From the NCBI GenBank assembly GCA_016209685.1, contig JACQVQ010000005.1:150655-214654 (forward strand): 64,000 nt of DNA. The letters run 5' to 3'. This DNA comes from Planctomycetota bacterium. GTDB lineage: Bacteria; Planctomycetota; Brocadiia; Brocadiales; Bathyanammoxibiaceae. A model generated the notes under the pieces. It was not told where the DNA came from and ran no database searches. It saw nothing but the letters and a program-made list of their open reading frames with translations. A program made the position numbers and the translations under genes. Below are positions 8,688-58,342 of this stretch, piece after piece; position 1 is the first letter of the stretch, and each line of letters starts with the position of its first letter.

Positions 8688-8753
8688 AGCCCTGGTGGCG
8701 GAGCACCAGGGCTATAGCATTGGGGCTCTGCCCCCAATGCTCCGCCTCAGGCA
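8688..8753. repeat. Family B bipartite palindrome, intergenic
   Basis: agccctggtggcggagcaccagggctatagcattggggctctgcccccaatgct followed by a family C-like motif. Confidence 0.9.
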
Positions 8754-24905: not shown

Positions 24906-25775
24906 TCAGATAAACTCTTCCAGCAATCTCTCAAGCCTGGAGCGGTCTGGTCCGCCCGCGGCAGACTTTACCAGCGGTGCCTCCCTTATGGCATGTATCT
25001 GCTCCTCCATGGTGGGCCTTTTGGGGTTGGTGTAGATAACACCAATGGGAATTTTACTGTCCCACTCCTGGGCCTTCTGGAAGGCCGCAACCCTATCTGT
25101 CGGGTCATACTTGCCGCCCTCATCCAATTTATAAACCCTCTCCTTATACCAGGCAAAGGTGTTCAGTTTGTTAAAACTGGGGCAAGGCTGGAGGACGTCC
25201 ACCAGGGCGAAGCCTTTGTGCCGCACGGCCTTCTGTATCAGGCCCACCAGGTGGTCCTTCTCACCGGTAAAGCCCCTGGCTACAAAACTGGCGTCCATGG
25301 CCGCCGCCGCCAGGACTGGGTTAAAGGGGGCAAGGATTACTCCCTCTGGCTGTATCTTGGTGGCAAAACCCGTATCGCTGGTAGGCGAGGCCTGTCCCTT
25401 TGTCAGGCCGTACACCTGATTATCATGCACTATCAGGGTTATGTCTATGTTCCTTCGTATGGCGTGGATAAAATGGTTCCCACCCTCACCGTAGCAATCC
25501 CCGTCTCCGGCGATGGCCAATACCGTCAGTTCGTGGTTGGCCAACTTTGCCCCGGTAGCAGGCGGCAAGGTACGGCCGTGGAGGCTGTTGAACGTGTTGC
25601 ATCTCAGGTAGTGAGGGAGCTTGCCTGCCTGCCCGATGCCAGAGACAAGGAGTACCTCGTGCGGCTCCTTCCCCAGGCCCACCAGGGCCTCCTGTACCGC
25701 CCTGAGGAGCATGAAATTCCCGCACCCCGGACACCAGGCCGTCGGCCCGCCTGCATAGTCTTTTAACGTAACCAT
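24906..25775 (-). CDS. korB: 2-oxoacid:ferredoxin oxidoreductase, beta subunit
   Basis: WCPGCGNFMLLRAVQEAL, GIGQAGKLPHYLRCNTFNSLHGRTLPPATGAKLAN, GDGDCYGEGGNHF. Confidence 0.88.
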   Translation of the reverse strand: MVTLKDYAGGPTAWCPGCGNFMLLRAVQEALVGLGKEPHEVLLVSGIGQAGKLPHYLRCNTFNSLHGRTLPPATGAKLANHELTVLAIAGDGDCYGEGGNHFIHAIRRNIDITLIVHDNQVYGLTKGQASPTSDTGFATKIQPEGVILAPFNPVLAAAAMDASFVARGFTGEKDHLVGLIQKAVRHKGFALVDVLQPCPSFNKLNTFAWYKERVYKLDEGGKYDPTDRVAAFQKAQEWDSKIPIGVIYTNPKRPTMEEQIHAIREAPLVKSAAGGPDRSRLERLLEEFI

Positions 25776-25799
25776 TACTATCTCCCTACTCCTTGGTTC

Positions 25800-25825
25800 C
25801 CAGGTGGCGGAGCACCTGGGCTATA
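25800..25825. repeat. Family B half element
   Basis: ccaggtggcggagcacctgggctata. Confidence 0.85.
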
Positions 25826-35744: not shown

Positions 35745-37382
35745 CTACTGTTTACTGCCTTCTTTAGCCTCTTCTTTTGCCACCTTGACCAGCGTGGCCA
35801 CGGTGCGGTTAGTCTTGGTTAAATACTTCCTGGCCACGCGCATAACGTCCTCAGCAGTAACGGCCTTAATCTTTTCAAGGGCGATATTTATATATTCCCA
35901 GCCGGCAATGGATTCATAGTAACCGATTTCATCTGCAAGGCCGTTGTTGGAATCCAGCCCGCGAATGAAGCCGGCCTCCAGTTGGTTTTTTATCTTTTCC
36001 AGTTCCCATTGGGAAGGAGGTTCCTTCTTCAATTTTTCTATTTCTTCGTATATGACCTGCTCCACCTCCTCGGCGGTGTGGGGGTGTCTGGGGGTCACAA
36101 AGACATAGAAGGTGTCCGGGTATCTGGAGGCCCCGGCATAGGACCTGACCATAACGGCCATCCTCTTCTCTTCTATGAGGGTCTTGTATAGTCTTGCCGT
36201 ACGTCCACTGGAAAGGAGTGACTCTACGACCTCAAGGGCATACTGGTCAGGGTGGGTTACCTGAGGTTTGTGATAAGCTATGGCCACGTTGGGGTTGGCG
36301 TCATATTCTACGTATACTCTCCTCTCACCCCTCTGCTCCGGCTCCACTGTCTCCACCTCTGGTATGGGGGGTTGGGAGGGGATGTCGCTAAAATATTTTT
36401 CTACCAGTTTTATGAACTCTTGCGTCTGGAAGTCCCCAACGGCTATTAGTACGGCATTGTTAGGGGCATAGTATCTGGTGAAGTACTCCTTGGTCCCTTC
36501 CTTAGTAAGTGCGTTTATGTCGGACCTCCAGCCTATTACCGGCCAGCTGTAGGGGTGGGCAGTAAAGGTGGCCGCCCTGAGCTGTTCAAGGAGCAGCCCG
36601 AAGGGGCTGGTCTCAGTCCTCAGCCTCCTCTCCTCCATTACCACGTCCTTTTCCGAGTAGAACTCCCTCAAGACCATGTTCTTCATCCTGTCAGACTCAA
36701 TAAGGCCCCATAGCTCCAGCTTGTTGGTAGGGAGGTCGCAGTAATAAAAGGTGGCATCTTCCCCGGTAGAGGCATTTAACCCTGTGCCGCCATGGCTCAT
36801 GTATATGGACCATAATTCGTCTTTGACCGTTACGTCCTTTAACTTCTTCCTTACCTCCTCCAGCTCGGTCTCCAGGGCCTTAATCTTCCCCTGGTCTGCC
36901 GACGCCCCTTTGTGCCTCTCCCCCTCTACGGCCACCACCAGTTCGTCCTCTCTCTTCAGTAAGGGTTCTTCTATGCTCCAGTCCTTGGTGCCGAAGAGTT
37001 TCGTACCCTTGAACATCATGTGCTCAAAGAGGTGGGATACGCCGGTAATGCCAGGCCGTTCGTTCACGGAGCCTACCTTGTACACTATTCTCAGGGAGAC
37101 GGTGGGGGACTTGTGCCTCTCCAGGGTCAATACCTTCAGCCCGTTTTTCAGCACGTGCTCCTTTACGTCTAGCTTTAGCTCCTGGGCAAGGAGGGGTAGC
37201 GGTGGGACAAGTAAGAGGCAGAACAGTAGTGTACAGATTAGGAGTCTGCCGAGGAAGGATTTGTCACCCTGAGCAGGGCGAAGGGTCTCGTGCGGAGATT
37301 CTTCGCTTCGCTCAGAATGACGGCCGTAGAATTTATTACCCATAGCTTGCCTCCTCAAGGCCTTTCGTAAGGGCGTATGCAA
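35745..37382 (-). CDS. M16-family zinc peptidase (true start probably downstream of 37382)
   Basis: GVSHLFEHMMFKGT (HxxEH); N-terminal SERSEES stretch is repeat-derived. Confidence 0.85.
   Translation of the reverse strand: MHTPLRKALRRQAMGNKFYGRHSERSEESPHETLRPAQGDKSFLGRLLICTLLFCLLLVPPLPLLAQELKLDVKEHVLKNGLKVLTLERHKSPTVSLRIVYKVGSVNERPGITGVSHLFEHMMFKGTKLFGTKDWSIEEPLLKREDELVVAVEGERHKGASADQGKIKALETELEEVRKKLKDVTVKDELWSIYMSHGGTGLNASTGEDATFYYCDLPTNKLELWGLIESDRMKNMVLREFYSEKDVVMEERRLRTETSPFGLLLEQLRAATFTAHPYSWPVIGWRSDINALTKEGTKEYFTRYYAPNNAVLIAVGDFQTQEFIKLVEKYFSDIPSQPPIPEVETVEPEQRGERRVYVEYDANPNVAIAYHKPQVTHPDQYALEVVESLLSSGRTARLYKTLIEEKRMAVMVRSYAGASRYPDTFYVFVTPRHPHTAEEVEQVIYEEIEKLKKEPPSQWELEKIKNQLEAGFIRGLDSNNGLADEIGYYESIAGWEYINIALEKIKAVTAEDVMRVARKYLTKTNRTVATLVKVAKEEAKEGSKQ
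37262..37322. repeat. SERSEES-type repeat (gtcaccctgagc...cgctcagaatgac) in the 5' region of an M16 ORF
   Basis: Inverted repeat encoding HSERSEESPHETLRPAQGDKSF. Confidence 0.85.
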
Positions 37383-37393
37383 TACGCCCCTAC
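37367..37393. repeat. Family A palindrome supplying the argJ stop
   Basis: gtaagggcgtatgcaatacgcccctac. Confidence 0.9.
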
Positions 37394-38661
37394 GTATGAT
37401 ACCTGGCGTTAATGGTCACGTACTTCTCAGAGAGGTCACAGGTCCAGACCTCGGCCTCTGCGCGGCCCAGCCCCAGTTCCAGCCGTAAATCTAGTTCTTT
37501 TCCTTGCATAATGTTTTTGAGCATTGGGGGCAGAGCCCCAATGCTATAGCCCTGGTGCTCCGCCACCAGGGCTTGGATAGGGCTGGCCACAGACGTTCCT
37601 CCCTCAAAAATTAACGACTCGCCAATATATAGCCTGAGCCTTTTTTCGTCAAGGGTAATACCCGTGGCCCCTGCCGCAGATATGATTCGGCCCCAGTTGG
37701 GGTCCTCCCCGTTTATGGCTGTCTTTACCAGGGGAGAGTTGGCAATGGCCCGTGCGATAACCCCGGCCTCTTTTTCCTTCTTAGCCCCTTTGACTATAAC
37801 CCTTACGAACTTGGTGGCCCCCTCGCCGTCCTTTACGATGGCCCTGGCCAGCACCTGGCAGAGGTGTCCAAGGGCCTCCTGGAAGGCGGTCAGGTCTCTG
37901 CCTCTAAGGCATGGCCCCCCACTGGCCCCATTTGCCATGAGGATTACCGTGTCATTGGTGCTCATGTGTCCGTCAATGGTAATCTGGTTGAAGGAGCGAC
38001 TCACTGCCCTCTGTAGACACGCCTTTGACTGTCTCCTGGTGAGCGTGGCATCGGTGGTGATAAAGGCGAGCATGGTAGCCATATTGGGGGCTATCATCCC
38101 TGCCCCCTTTGCCGCCCCTCCAAGGGTGATGGTACGGCCCCCTGTGTCTATCTTCAGCGCAAGCTCCTTGGGGCTGGTATCGGTGGTCATAATCGCCCTG
38201 GTAAACGACCTGCCGTGCTCGGGGTCCCTGCTCATCTTCTGACCGGCCTCTCTTATCCCTGCAAGTATCTTTTCCATGGGAAGCGGTTGACCTATGATGC
38301 CCGTGGAGGCCACAAGGACTTCGGAGGGGGAGAGGCCGAGTTCCCTGGCCGTGGCCTCTGCCATTGCCATGGCGTTGAGGTGGCCCTGGGCACCTGTGCA
38401 GGCGTTGGCGTTACCGCTATTTACTACCACTGCCCTGATGGGTCCCCTCTTGACGGTCTCCCTGCTCAATCTTACCGGGGCGGCCACTATCTGGTTGGTA
38501 GTAAAGAGGGCCGCCGCCCGGGCGGGGCGGTTGGATAGCAGGAGGGCCAGGTCGTAGCCCCCTTGTTTAATGCCACAGGCGCAGGCCCCGGCCAGGAAGC
38601 CAGAGGGTGCCACCACGCCACCAGAAACTTCTTGTATATTGTCTTTAGACATAGATAACAT
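37390..38661 (-). CDS. argJ: Bifunctional ornithine acetyltransferase/N-acetylglutamate synthase
   Basis: VVVNSGNANACTGAQG, GAAKGAGMIAPNMATMLAFITTDA, DPNWGRIISAAGATG. Confidence 0.92.
   Translation of the reverse strand: MLSMSKDNIQEVSGGVVAPSGFLAGACACGIKQGGYDLALLLSNRPARAAALFTTNQIVAAPVRLSRETVKRGPIRAVVVNSGNANACTGAQGHLNAMAMAEATARELGLSPSEVLVASTGIIGQPLPMEKILAGIREAGQKMSRDPEHGRSFTRAIMTTDTSPKELALKIDTGGRTITLGGAAKGAGMIAPNMATMLAFITTDATLTRRQSKACLQRAVSRSFNQITIDGHMSTNDTVILMANGASGGPCLRGRDLTAFQEALGHLCQVLARAIVKDGEGATKFVRVIVKGAKKEKEAGVIARAIANSPLVKTAINGEDPNWGRIISAAGATGITLDEKRLRLYIGESLIFEGGTSVASPIQALVAEHQGYSIGALPPMLKNIMQGKELDLRLELGLGRAEAEVWTCDLSEKYVTINARYHT
37521..37574. repeat. Family B palindrome in-frame in argJ
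   Basis: agcattgggggcagagccccaatgctatagccctggtgctccgccaccagggct; reads ALVAEHQGYSIGALPPML. Confidence 0.92.
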
Positions 38662-44613: not shown

Positions 44614-45738
44614 CTAGCTCCTGGCAAGGAACCTCAAGGCGTCAAAGAGGGGGCGTGGATGGAGCTCCCATAGATAGGAAGACTCCAGCGTCCCGGCATC
44701 GGCGCAAAGGGCACATGACTCGGCCCTCCTTATGAAATCTTTGTATCCAGCACCCCCTATTATCTCCCTCAAGCCCTTCTCCCTTACGTTAGCCATTACC
44801 CGTCCAGGACGGGTACAGTCAATGACATCCCCGTTGGTATCTACCCTGAAGACCAGCTTCTTGTAATGGCATCTGTAATGACCATTTGCATTAAATGTAG
44901 CGTACATGCCCAGGCGACGGAGCGCCTGGGCTATAGGGTTGGGGCTCTGTCCCCAACCCCCGACCAGAGCTTCGGGCCGAAGGCTTGTCTCGCACGTTTT
45001 TATAAAGGTATTTAAATACTCGTAAGAATTCAGCACAGGGAACCCCCTGTTCTTGGCGTGTCTGATAAGCTTAAAGGCACTTGACTGTCCTTCCTGAGAG
45101 GGTACTGCATCGGGGTCTATGGGCCTGGGAGAGACTGCATAGTCCAGGGTGTTTATTGCCTGAAAGATAATGGGAAGCCCCTCCTTACGACTGAACCCCA
45201 GTAGACCCTCCACCTCCTGGAGGTTCTCCCTTGTGATTACTGAGATAATTATAGGTCTTACCCCGGCAAAGTCTGCCCTGATAGACCTTATACCGTCTAC
45301 AGCCCTTCTAAAACACCCCGGCAGGCGGCGCATGGTATCATGGAATTCGTTTGGGGCGTCAAAGGATACAAGGAGGGTATCCAGATATGGCCCTATCTCC
45401 CCCACCCTTTCTGGCAGGTTGTAACCGTTGGTAATGATCGTAGTCTTTAGGCCCGCCTCCCTGGCCGAAAACAGCACCTCCCCCAGGTCCTCCCTCAACA
45501 GGGGTTCTCCACCCCAGATTACCACGCTCAGGAAGCCCGACCTCCCAGCCTGGGCATACAAATTCTTCACCTGCCCACTATCCAACTCCACTCCCTCCCC
45601 TTTCCATAGACAGAAGGGGCAGTCAGCATTACATCGGCGGGTGATGAGGTGGGAGAGTATAAAGGGCCTGCCCAGAAACCGGGCAGTCGATAGGGCCCTG
45701 GATAGTCCGGCTATATCTCTAAGTGCTTCTACCCTCAC
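44614..45738 (-). CDS. Radical SAM protein
   Basis: LITRRCNADCPFCLWKGEG, VVIWGGEPLLRED; contains in-frame repeat at 44908-44958. Confidence 0.82.
   Translation of the reverse strand: MRVEALRDIAGLSRALSTARFLGRPFILSHLITRRCNADCPFCLWKGEGVELDSGQVKNLYAQAGRSGFLSVVIWGGEPLLREDLGEVLFSAREAGLKTTIITNGYNLPERVGEIGPYLDTLLVSFDAPNEFHDTMRRLPGCFRRAVDGIRSIRADFAGVRPIIISVITRENLQEVEGLLGFSRKEGLPIIFQAINTLDYAVSPRPIDPDAVPSQEGQSSAFKLIRHAKNRGFPVLNSYEYLNTFIKTCETSLRPEALVGGWGQSPNPIAQALRRLGMYATFNANGHYRCHYKKLVFRVDTNGDVIDCTRPGRVMANVREKGLREIIGGAGYKDFIRRAESCALCADAGTLESSYLWELHPRPLFDALRFLARS
44908..44958. repeat. Family B palindrome in-frame in radical SAM
   Basis: gcccaggcgacggagcgcctgggctatagggttggggctctgtccccaacc; reads GWGQSPNPIAQALRRLG. 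Confidence 0.92.
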
Positions 45739-46126
45739 GTTTAGATAAGAAACTCTTTACCCACTCTTTTATCCGTTCTGCGGAATCTCTTGCCTTAACA
45801 GCAACTTCCTCGGTATAGCTACTGGGCCAATGTACAGGGTAACGTGTATCAACATAGAATGGGTTTAGGTAGCGACAGGGTTCCTCTATCGCTTTAATTT
45901 TTGGCTCTTTTTGCTTGCAAATCTCTAATAGTTCCAGGAGGTTATGAATAGGTCTAAATTCTAGCCGGTTGGCGATGATGAAAGCCTTAAGGTATTTCTC
46001 TGCCGATTGTTGAAAGTGGAAGCAGACCTGGGGAAAATACCCCATTTCCTTCAAGCCCAAAGAGGCAAACCCAAAGTCTTCTTCAGCCTTTTCAATCCAT
46101 TCCTTTACCACCTCATCCTGCGGCAT
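45719..46126 (-). CDS. HEPN-domain protein (HEPN/MNT module)
   Basis: WIEKAEEDFGFASLGLKEMGYFPQVCFHFQQSAEKYLKAFI. Confidence 0.82.
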   Translation of the reverse strand: MPQDEVVKEWIEKAEEDFGFASLGLKEMGYFPQVCFHFQQSAEKYLKAFIIANRLEFRPIHNLLELLEICKQKEPKIKAIEEPCRYLNPFYVDTRYPVHWPSSYTEEVAVKARDSAERIKEWVKSFLSKREGRST

Positions 46127-49010: not shown

Positions 49011-49065
49011 TGGGGGTTTGGTAGGGTTGCTTTTTGCCTAAAGGGCTTCTATTATATGGCCCGGT

Positions 49066-49929
49066 ATGCAAAAGATTAGACGCAAGTCTTTGCTTTATAA
49101 AAGCAGAGTAGAATTCGCCGACTTCTGCATCAACCACGTGGAGGGGTGTTCTCATGGATGTAGATACCCCTGTTACGCCATGATGATGAAGAAAAGGTGT
49201 GGCGTAATTTCTTCTTATGAGGATTGGTGCAGGCCAAAGATCGTTGAGAATGCCCTTGAACTGCTAGAAAGGGAGTTATCAAGATACAATGGTAAAATCA
49301 AATCAGTCCACCTGTGTTTCTCTACAGACCCGTTTATGTTCGGGTATGATGAGATAGGACAGTTAAGTCTAAGGCTAATGAGGAGGTTAAACAGCGAAAA
49401 TATCCCCTGTACCGTTCTCACAAAAGGCGTTTACCCAAAGGAGATTGCCTTGCCTGCCCTGTACCCTCATGGTACAGGGGATGAGAGGATGTCGCCAGCC
49501 CAGGTGACGGAGCACCTGGGCTATAGGGTTGGGGCTCTGCCCCCAACCCTGCCTCAGGCACGGAGGAGAAACAAGTTTGGCATAACGCTCGTCTCCTTAG
49601 ATGAGGACTTCAGGAGAGATTACGAACCTAATGCCGCCGGATTTGAGGAACGTATTAAGTCCCTTAGATACTTACATGAAAAAGGCTTCAAGACGTGGGT
49701 GAGCATGGAACCATACCCCACGCCCAATATAATAAGGCAAGACCTGCTTAAAATCCTGGAGGCGGTATCGTTTGCCGATGAGATTATCTTCGGGAGGTTA
49801 AACTACAGCCCCAGGACAAGGGTCTTTTCGCATTCAAAGACCTTCTATAATGACCAGGCAAAGGCTGTAGTAAATTTTTGCAAGAGAAATAATATTTCGT
49901 ATTATATCAAGGATGGGACTATAACTTAA
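49066..49929 (+). CDS. Radical SAM protein, spore photoproduct lyase-related, with CX3CX3C motif
   Basis: VEGCSHGCRYPCYAMMM; repeat-derived in-frame insert at 49456-49560. Confidence 0.72.
   Translation: MQKIRRKSLLYKSRVEFADFCINHVEGCSHGCRYPCYAMMMKKRCGVISSYEDWCRPKIVENALELLERELSRYNGKIKSVHLCFSTDPFMFGYDEIGQLSLRLMRRLNSENIPCTVLTKGVYPKEIALPALYPHGTGDERMSPAQVTEHLGYRVGALPPTLPQARRRNKFGITLVSLDEDFRRDYEPNAAGFEERIKSLRYLHEKGFKTWVSMEPYPTPNIIRQDLLKILEAVSFADEIIFGRLNYSPRTRVFSHSKTFYNDQAKAVVNFCKRNNISYYIKDGTIT
49456..49560. repeat. Family G + B + C-like elements in tandem, in-frame in radical SAM
   Basis: gccctgtaccctcatggtacagggg ... cccaggtgacggagcacctgggctatagggttggggctctgcccccaaccct ... gcctcaggca. Confidence 0.92.
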
Positions 49930-49934
49930 TTTAT

Positions 49935-49988
49935 AGCCCAGGTGACGGAGCACCTGGGCTATAGGGTTGGGGCTCTGCCCCCAACCCT
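49935..49988. repeat. Family B palindrome, intergenic
   Basis: agcccaggtgacggagcacctgggctatagggttggggctctgcccccaaccct. Confidence 0.95.
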
Positions 49989-57966: not shown

Positions 57967-58236
57967 TCATTCCCCTGTCTGCTGACCCCTGACTGCTGAC
58001 TGCTGATTCCTGTCTTTCTTCAACTTATCCAGCTTCTTTGCAATCTCAAACTGCTGGTGGAAGCCCAGGCGACAGAGCGCCTGGGCTATAGGGTTGGGGC
58101 TCTGCCCCCAACCCTGGGCCAGGACAAAGAAGCCCAGTATCCAGCACAGGGTCAGGGCTATAGTAACCAGGGTATCTAGCATTTTAATTCCGAATTCCGA
58201 AGTCCGAATTCCGAATTCGGGCTTCTGTCCGTACAC
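57967..58236 (-). CDS. Small TM protein largely assembled from dispersed repeats
   Basis: FGIRTSEFGIK + MLDTLVTIALTLCWILGFFVLAQ + GWGQSPNPIAQAL + NQQSAVRGQQ. Confidence 0.4.
   Translation of the reverse strand: MYGQKPEFGIRTSEFGIKMLDTLVTIALTLCWILGFFVLAQGWGQSPNPIAQALCRLGFHQQFEIAKKLDKLKKDRNQQSAVRGQQTGE
58063..58114. repeat. Family B palindrome in ORF 57967
   Basis: gcccaggcgacagagcgcctgggctatagggttggggctctgcccccaacc. Confidence 0.92.
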
Positions 58237-58342
58237 TCCTTCTTGCAGTATTCAATCTCCACCGTCTTTCCCAGGAACTTACAATAGGTCCTGGGGGTTC
58301 CGCCCTCGTCCCTATACCTCGCGGCCATTGTGCACCAGAAGG

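Follow-up and report, generated by a model that had tools for sequence, protein, structure and literature searches.

A 54-bp double hairpin, probably mobile, is read in frame within argJ of a Brocadiales-type planctomycete

Most descriptions of translated palindromes come from Rickettsia and Wolbachia, and the way such palindromes insert is not established in the accounts cited here (PMC2229807, PMC10969869). Rickettsia palindromic elements (RPEs; Ogata 2000, 2002) are 105–146 bp long, form long stem-loops and are translated in frame with their hosts, of which the enzyme gmk can stay active (PMC2229807, PMC10969869); target duplication is listed as unknown for them in the 2007 review, where the Wolbachia protein-coding palindromes (WPEs; Ogata 2005) are likewise summarised as in-frame and translated (PMC2229807). 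Paired short hairpins are also found in the REP/BIME repeats with their RAYT enzymes (PMC3733652, PMC8266576), and the TnpA-REP of E. coli cleaves REP single strands at CT (PMC8266576). ERIC/RU, Correia and other small ORF-bearing MITEs are non-autonomous repeats of ~100–200 bp that can be fused in frame and mostly have TA ends and target duplications (PMC2229807). The literature searched, which covered few subscription papers, contained no account of such elements in anammox-group planctomycetes.

We analysed a 64-kb window (the whole stretch of DNA under study) from a Brocadiales-type planctomycete MAG, a draft genome of 2.02 Mb in 14 contigs and 94.6% complete (G000), and compared it with relatives that are metagenome assemblies. 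Its argJ gene contains one of several copies of a bipartite palindrome, family B, in the window:

37390–38661, minus strand: argJ, bifunctional glutamate N-acetyltransferase/amino-acid acetyltransferase, the host gene, intact, 423 codons
37520–37573, minus strand: family B bipartite palindromic element, in frame in argJ as ALVAEHQGYSIGALPPM; AGTTCT target (6 bp) replaced
37548–37573, minus strand: hairpin 1 in argJ mRNA sense, AGCCCTGGTG-gcggag-CACCAGGGCT
37520–37545, minus strand: hairpin 2 in argJ mRNA sense, AGCATTGGGG-ctctgc-CCCCAATGCT
8688–8741, plus strand: intergenic family B copy, identical to the argJ copy
25797–25822, plus strand: half copy consisting of one subfamily-2-type hairpin, just upstream of where ORF 24909–25820 (minus strand) probably starts
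44907–44960, plus strand: subfamily-2 copy, in frame (GWGQSPNPIAQALRRLG) in the radical SAM/SPASM ORF 44617–45756 (minus strand)
49497–49550, plus strand: subfamily-2 copy, in frame (AQVTEHLGYRVGALPPT) in the radical SAM ORF 49042–49926 (plus strand)
49935–49988, plus strand: subfamily-2 copy, intergenic, a few bp past the radical SAM ORF stop
58062–58115, plus strand: subfamily-2 copy, in frame in the small membrane-protein ORF 57970–58251 (minus strand); site empty (GGAACT) in two congeners

Comparison of the copies with each other and with empty sites defined the argJ element as a 54-bp double hairpin at 37520–37573, one base pair away from the position given in a first-pass annotation (37521–37574), which had its length right. 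The same annotation had seen two consecutive palindromes joined by CTATAG; the palindromes are there, the joiner is AT, and the remaining letters are flanking stem bases. Both hairpins are perfect, with 10-bp arms and 6-nt loops (AGCATTGGGGgcagagCCCCAATGCT and AGCCCTGGTGctccgcCACCAGGGCT). The window holds exactly two occurrences of the 52-bp core, at 8689–8740 (plus strand) and 37521–37572 (minus strand), where shuffled sequences lead to an expectation of zero. The intergenic copy at 8688 had thus been assigned to the right class, and the one at 49935, also intergenic as described, belongs to it only as a member of a diverged subfamily, with differences at 7 of 54 bases and paired changes in the stems. 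The copies at 44907, 49497 and 58062, all in frame within ORFs, and the half copy at 25797 had gone unmentioned, and bring the in-frame insertions in window ORFs to four, argJ included. An Rfam search with the element returned no match.

The element is read through in argJ, as first proposed, and translates as ALVAEHQGYSIGALPPM followed by L. At this site the congener G002, whose ArgJ is 94% identical, has CCA-AGAACT-CAAGAAC, whereas the present genome has CCA-[54 bp]-CAAAAAC, so that QELKN becomes Q-ALVAEHQGYSIGALPPM-LKN in the protein. The predicted addition of about 18 residues matches the length of the element, but with 6 bp (AGTTCT) given up for the 54 bp, the sequence grew by 48 bp net, or 16 residues. 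Of the six possible readings of the main element, four contain no stop, and argJ therefore gained 16 codons without truncation. The segment is also missing from the ArgJ of G006 (79% identical), and its residues, which repeat-free orthologues would share if they predated the repeat, occur in none of the 29 ArgJ sequences aligned. The nearest named ArgJ relatives are those of 'Candidatus Brocadiaceae bacterium Yes70-17' and other planctomycete MAGs, followed by Scalindua, Jettenia and Brocadia. On these alignments, the segment is evidently a real insertion rather than ancestral sequence.

A search of the whole source genome gave 31 matches to the element, ~25 of them full length, and the congeners G001 and G002 hold 8 and 13, respectively. 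One diverged copy was found in G005, from another genus of the same family, and none in the remaining relatives searched. The copies fall into two subfamilies split by paired stem changes; across the stems, 97.7% of cells are paired, and 19 two-sided changes compare with 5.4 in shuffles, with no slid control coming close. We counted at least 15 independent in-frame insertions into ORFs, 11 of them in G000. The hosts in this genome are argJ, a Big_1-like ORF, an Ada-metal-binding-like ORF and a small membrane protein, together with ORFs with Pfam matches to glycerate kinase (the element lying between DUF4147 and MOFRL), prohead protease, radical SAM (two ORFs), GvpL/F, phosphodiesterase and cytochrome b561. 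Those of G002, kdtA (KDO transferase), a DUF1848 ORF and dacB (S13 peptidase), and that of G005, a dCache/GGDEF protein, have Pfam matches as well. The gvpL/F copy (L021, G000:C8:431121–431195) has part of the element duplicated internally, in frame, a feature that its orthologous copy in G002 (L070) lacks.

That these copies arose by misassembly is very improbable. The genome is a draft and its relatives are metagenome assemblies, but a typical read is longer than 54 bp, both flanks of the argJ copy are colinear with the congener, and filled sites are found again at orthologous positions in genomes assembled separately (gvpL/F in G002, the Ada-like ORF in G001).

Ten pairs of filled and empty sites revealed the same event each time, (A)GNNCT being replaced by AG-50bp-CT with a net gain of 48 bp. 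The empty hexamers, written on one strand, are:

AGTTCT, argJ
AGCACT, L009
AGACCT, L014
TGAACT, L016
AGGTCT, gvpL/F (L021)
GGCCCT, kdtA (L064)
AGGGCT, dacB (L068)
AGGGCT, L012
AGACCT, L015
GGAACT, L023 (the 58062 copy)

Seven of the ten are exact AGNNCT (chance ~3e-15 at window frequencies) and all ten fit NGNNCT; none of the pairs has a target-site duplication, the six target bases being replaced. A gain of 48 bp keeps the downstream frame whatever the phase. L012 and L015 appear to be intergenic and also gained 48 bp, so selection in genes does not by itself account for this length; with two apparently intergenic pairs behaving like the others, it looks as if the frame is preserved as a side effect of how the element inserts, to judge from these pairs. 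At the cytochrome b561 site (L025), an exception, 9 bp were replaced (AGTCGGACT) and the frame was still kept, and four complex sites (L003, L006, L024 and L066) have no clean single-event replacement.

These data also bear on whether the 16 residues could be a loop of ancestral origin that the relatives have lost, with palindromes that arose by convergence. Variability of this one ArgJ loop was all that we found in its favour, whereas the argJ copy is identical in DNA to an intergenic copy, every relative compared within and outside the genus is without the segment, and replacement of 6 bp by 54 bp is seen repeatedly, in unrelated genes as in apparently intergenic DNA; we consider this explanation hardly credible.

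Compared with the described systems, the element resembles RPEs in being a short palindrome, with several families and many copies, found in frame in unrelated conserved genes: its 15 independent insertions are in unrelated protein genes, and close orthologues have the empty site. It differs from them in its length of 54 bp, outside the 105–146 bp of RPEs, in its two tandem hairpins and in the (A)GNNCT replacement, and Rickettsia belongs to another phylum, the comparison being one of descriptions. With WPEs, also from another phylum and likened here by their cited description, it shares the in-frame, in its own case predicted, translation of a palindrome. It is like REP/BIME in its paired short hairpins, the CT dinucleotides at its ends, the possibility of single-strand HUH processing and the target duplication not being seen; unlike REP/BIME, it ends in AG...CT without a GTAG tag, is often intragenic and flanks no RAYT gene. 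ERIC/RU, Correia and similar MITEs are, like the element, small non-autonomous repeats fused in frame, but it has neither their TA ends nor target duplications. The element thus fails the tested definitions of both a GTAG REP and a target-duplicating MITE. By analogy, it appears to work like the Rickettsia and Wolbachia palindromes at about half their size and with a defined target rule. Since clean pairs among the planctomycete sister genomes define target, replacement and net length, the insertion mechanism becomes testable.

The best explanation, which we consider highly probable, is that the element is a mobile but non-autonomous DNA palindrome, translated whenever a gene is its landing site. 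The double hairpin took the place of the 6-bp (A)GNNCT, leaving AG-50bp-CT, and may be moved by a trans-acting enzyme that works on the folded single strand and cuts at CT dinucleotides; given the AG...CT ends, target and element are both edged by a CT dinucleotide on either strand. The host would gain little or nothing from the element, which would be selfish DNA tolerated where it does no harm. The CT edges, the CT cutting by TnpA-REP and the presence in the genome of three Y1 transposase (RAYT) genes (loci L192–L194) together make an HUH enzyme acting in trans a reasonable guess. The palindromes that flank these genes are others, including one of GTAG type (L194), and no element was found within ~1.5 kb on each side of the three Y1_Tnp loci.

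Overlapping with the mobile-palindrome explanation, and differing from it in naming the enzyme and the family, is the reading that the element is REP/BIME proper, spread by a resident RAYT (TnpA-REP), with argJ as an accidental landing. Its double hairpins are of REP size, Y1 transposases are present, a GTAG-type palindrome flanks one RAYT locus and TnpA-REP cleaves at the CT adjoining REP (PMC8266576). We nevertheless regard this reading as doubtful, given ends that lack the GTAG tag, the absence of the element from RAYT loci and the 11 of ~25 full-length copies that lie in frame in ORFs and not extragenically.

A proposal that we make tentatively, holding it to be somewhat short of probable, is that the insertion chemistry of the mobile palindrome is itself frame-preserving, an enzyme recognising (A)GNNCT, a small palindrome in itself, and swapping in AG-50bp-CT, with a gain of 48 bp and no target duplication. 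If this is true, such elements could invade coding DNA at little cost, nest in earlier palindromes and extend proteins stepwise. The insertions observed also illustrate how putatively selfish DNA can lengthen conserved enzymes by 16 residues at a time.

Two further ideas were rejected. A link of the element to the resident RAYTs was dropped on finding other palindromes in their flanks, and a role as the end repeats of a composite transposon on finding that the sole inverted pair, 1.5 kb apart (C2:69542/71081), shows no transposase over the stretch read. The main ORF of this stretch resembles a secreted nuclease by eye. The RAYT gene at L194 is flanked by GTAGCCGCAGGCTTTAGCCTGCGGCTAC copies (1346–1420 and 1917–2011), which are GTAG-type REP, and that at L192 by AGGGTGCGT...ACGCACCCT inverted repeats (1286–1454 and 2031–2090).

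Among the 15 genic copies, 12 are read in the phase that yields ALVAEHQGYSIGALPPM or ALGAEPQCYSPGAPPPG (or the subfamily equivalents), three in the other open phase and none in the stop phase, compared to 93:98:42 for background AGNNCT sites of window ORFs in the same three phases. The bias between the open phases (12 vs 3) is modest (p ~0.014) and suggests screening at the level of the peptide, for which translation would be required. Avoidance of the stop phase (0/15, p ~0.05) is not significant by itself, because AGNNCT is rare in that phase. RNA of the element has a strong predicted fold (−38.1 kcal/mol, z −4.5), and several copies adjoin the 5' side of ORFs, as might be expected if the element had been recruited for a function such as mRNA hairpins tuning argJ expression or stability. 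Recruitment is improbable in our view, since the argJ insertion is found only in this genome among those compared, the host genes are functionally unrelated and the 12:3:0 phase bias suggests selection against harm at the protein level. Two strong hairpins in the coding strand could also let ribosomes bypass the segment, or RNA removal excise it, to yield ArgJ without it; with the frame kept without skipping and no genic copy in the stop phase, even if chance alone accounts for the latter at ~0.05, we give this little credence.

The ArgJ protein with the insertion scores above both NCBIfam ArgJ cut-offs (485 bits against an equivalog cut-off of 351), and T196, which we take to be the conserved autoproteolysis threonine and cleavage site, is invariant in the ArgJ alignment. 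Pairwise dN/dS against G002 is 0.16, and the two branches carry 11 and 7 amino-acid changes. This value comes from a single pair and mixes the periods preceding and following the insertion; by this ratio, argJ is evidently under purifying selection. An AlphaFold2 model (mean pLDDT 92) places the insert in a low-confidence loop between two short helices (50–62 in the 10-residue blocks over residues 364–380) of an otherwise confident fold, whose best structural matches are solved ornithine acetyltransferases. The insert site is a naturally variable segment ahead of the last strands of the beta chain. Judged by dN/dS and the modelled fold, argJ appears functional, and we infer that the cell produces ArgJ with the extra loop and that the enzyme retains its activity.

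The 54-bp element has also inserted into a second hairpin family, GCCCTGAACC-n5-GGTTCAGGGC, which has 44 copies in G000 and whose arms vary in pairs (GAACC/GGTTC, GCACC/GGTGC, GTACC/GGTAC). In dacB the layers can be read across genomes: the product has ...YGSGLAQQ in G000 and ...GLALNQNGSGLAQQ in G001, and in G002 the 54-bp element lies inside the GLALNQNGSGLAQQ stretch; kdtA is layered in the same way. In the copies L071, L069 and L073 of G001, further hairpins are nested within the GCCCTGGTG hairpin. A short palindrome, TCCGCCTCAGGCGGA, has many copies across the window (e.g. at 112, 12535, 48303 and 59248) and is present in congeners also within the loop of the 54-bp element. Next to argJ, the M16 peptidase ORF 35745–37382, as listed, starts with read-through of another apparent repeat at 37270–37340 (HSERSEESPHETLRPAQGDKS); its true start is probably further downstream.
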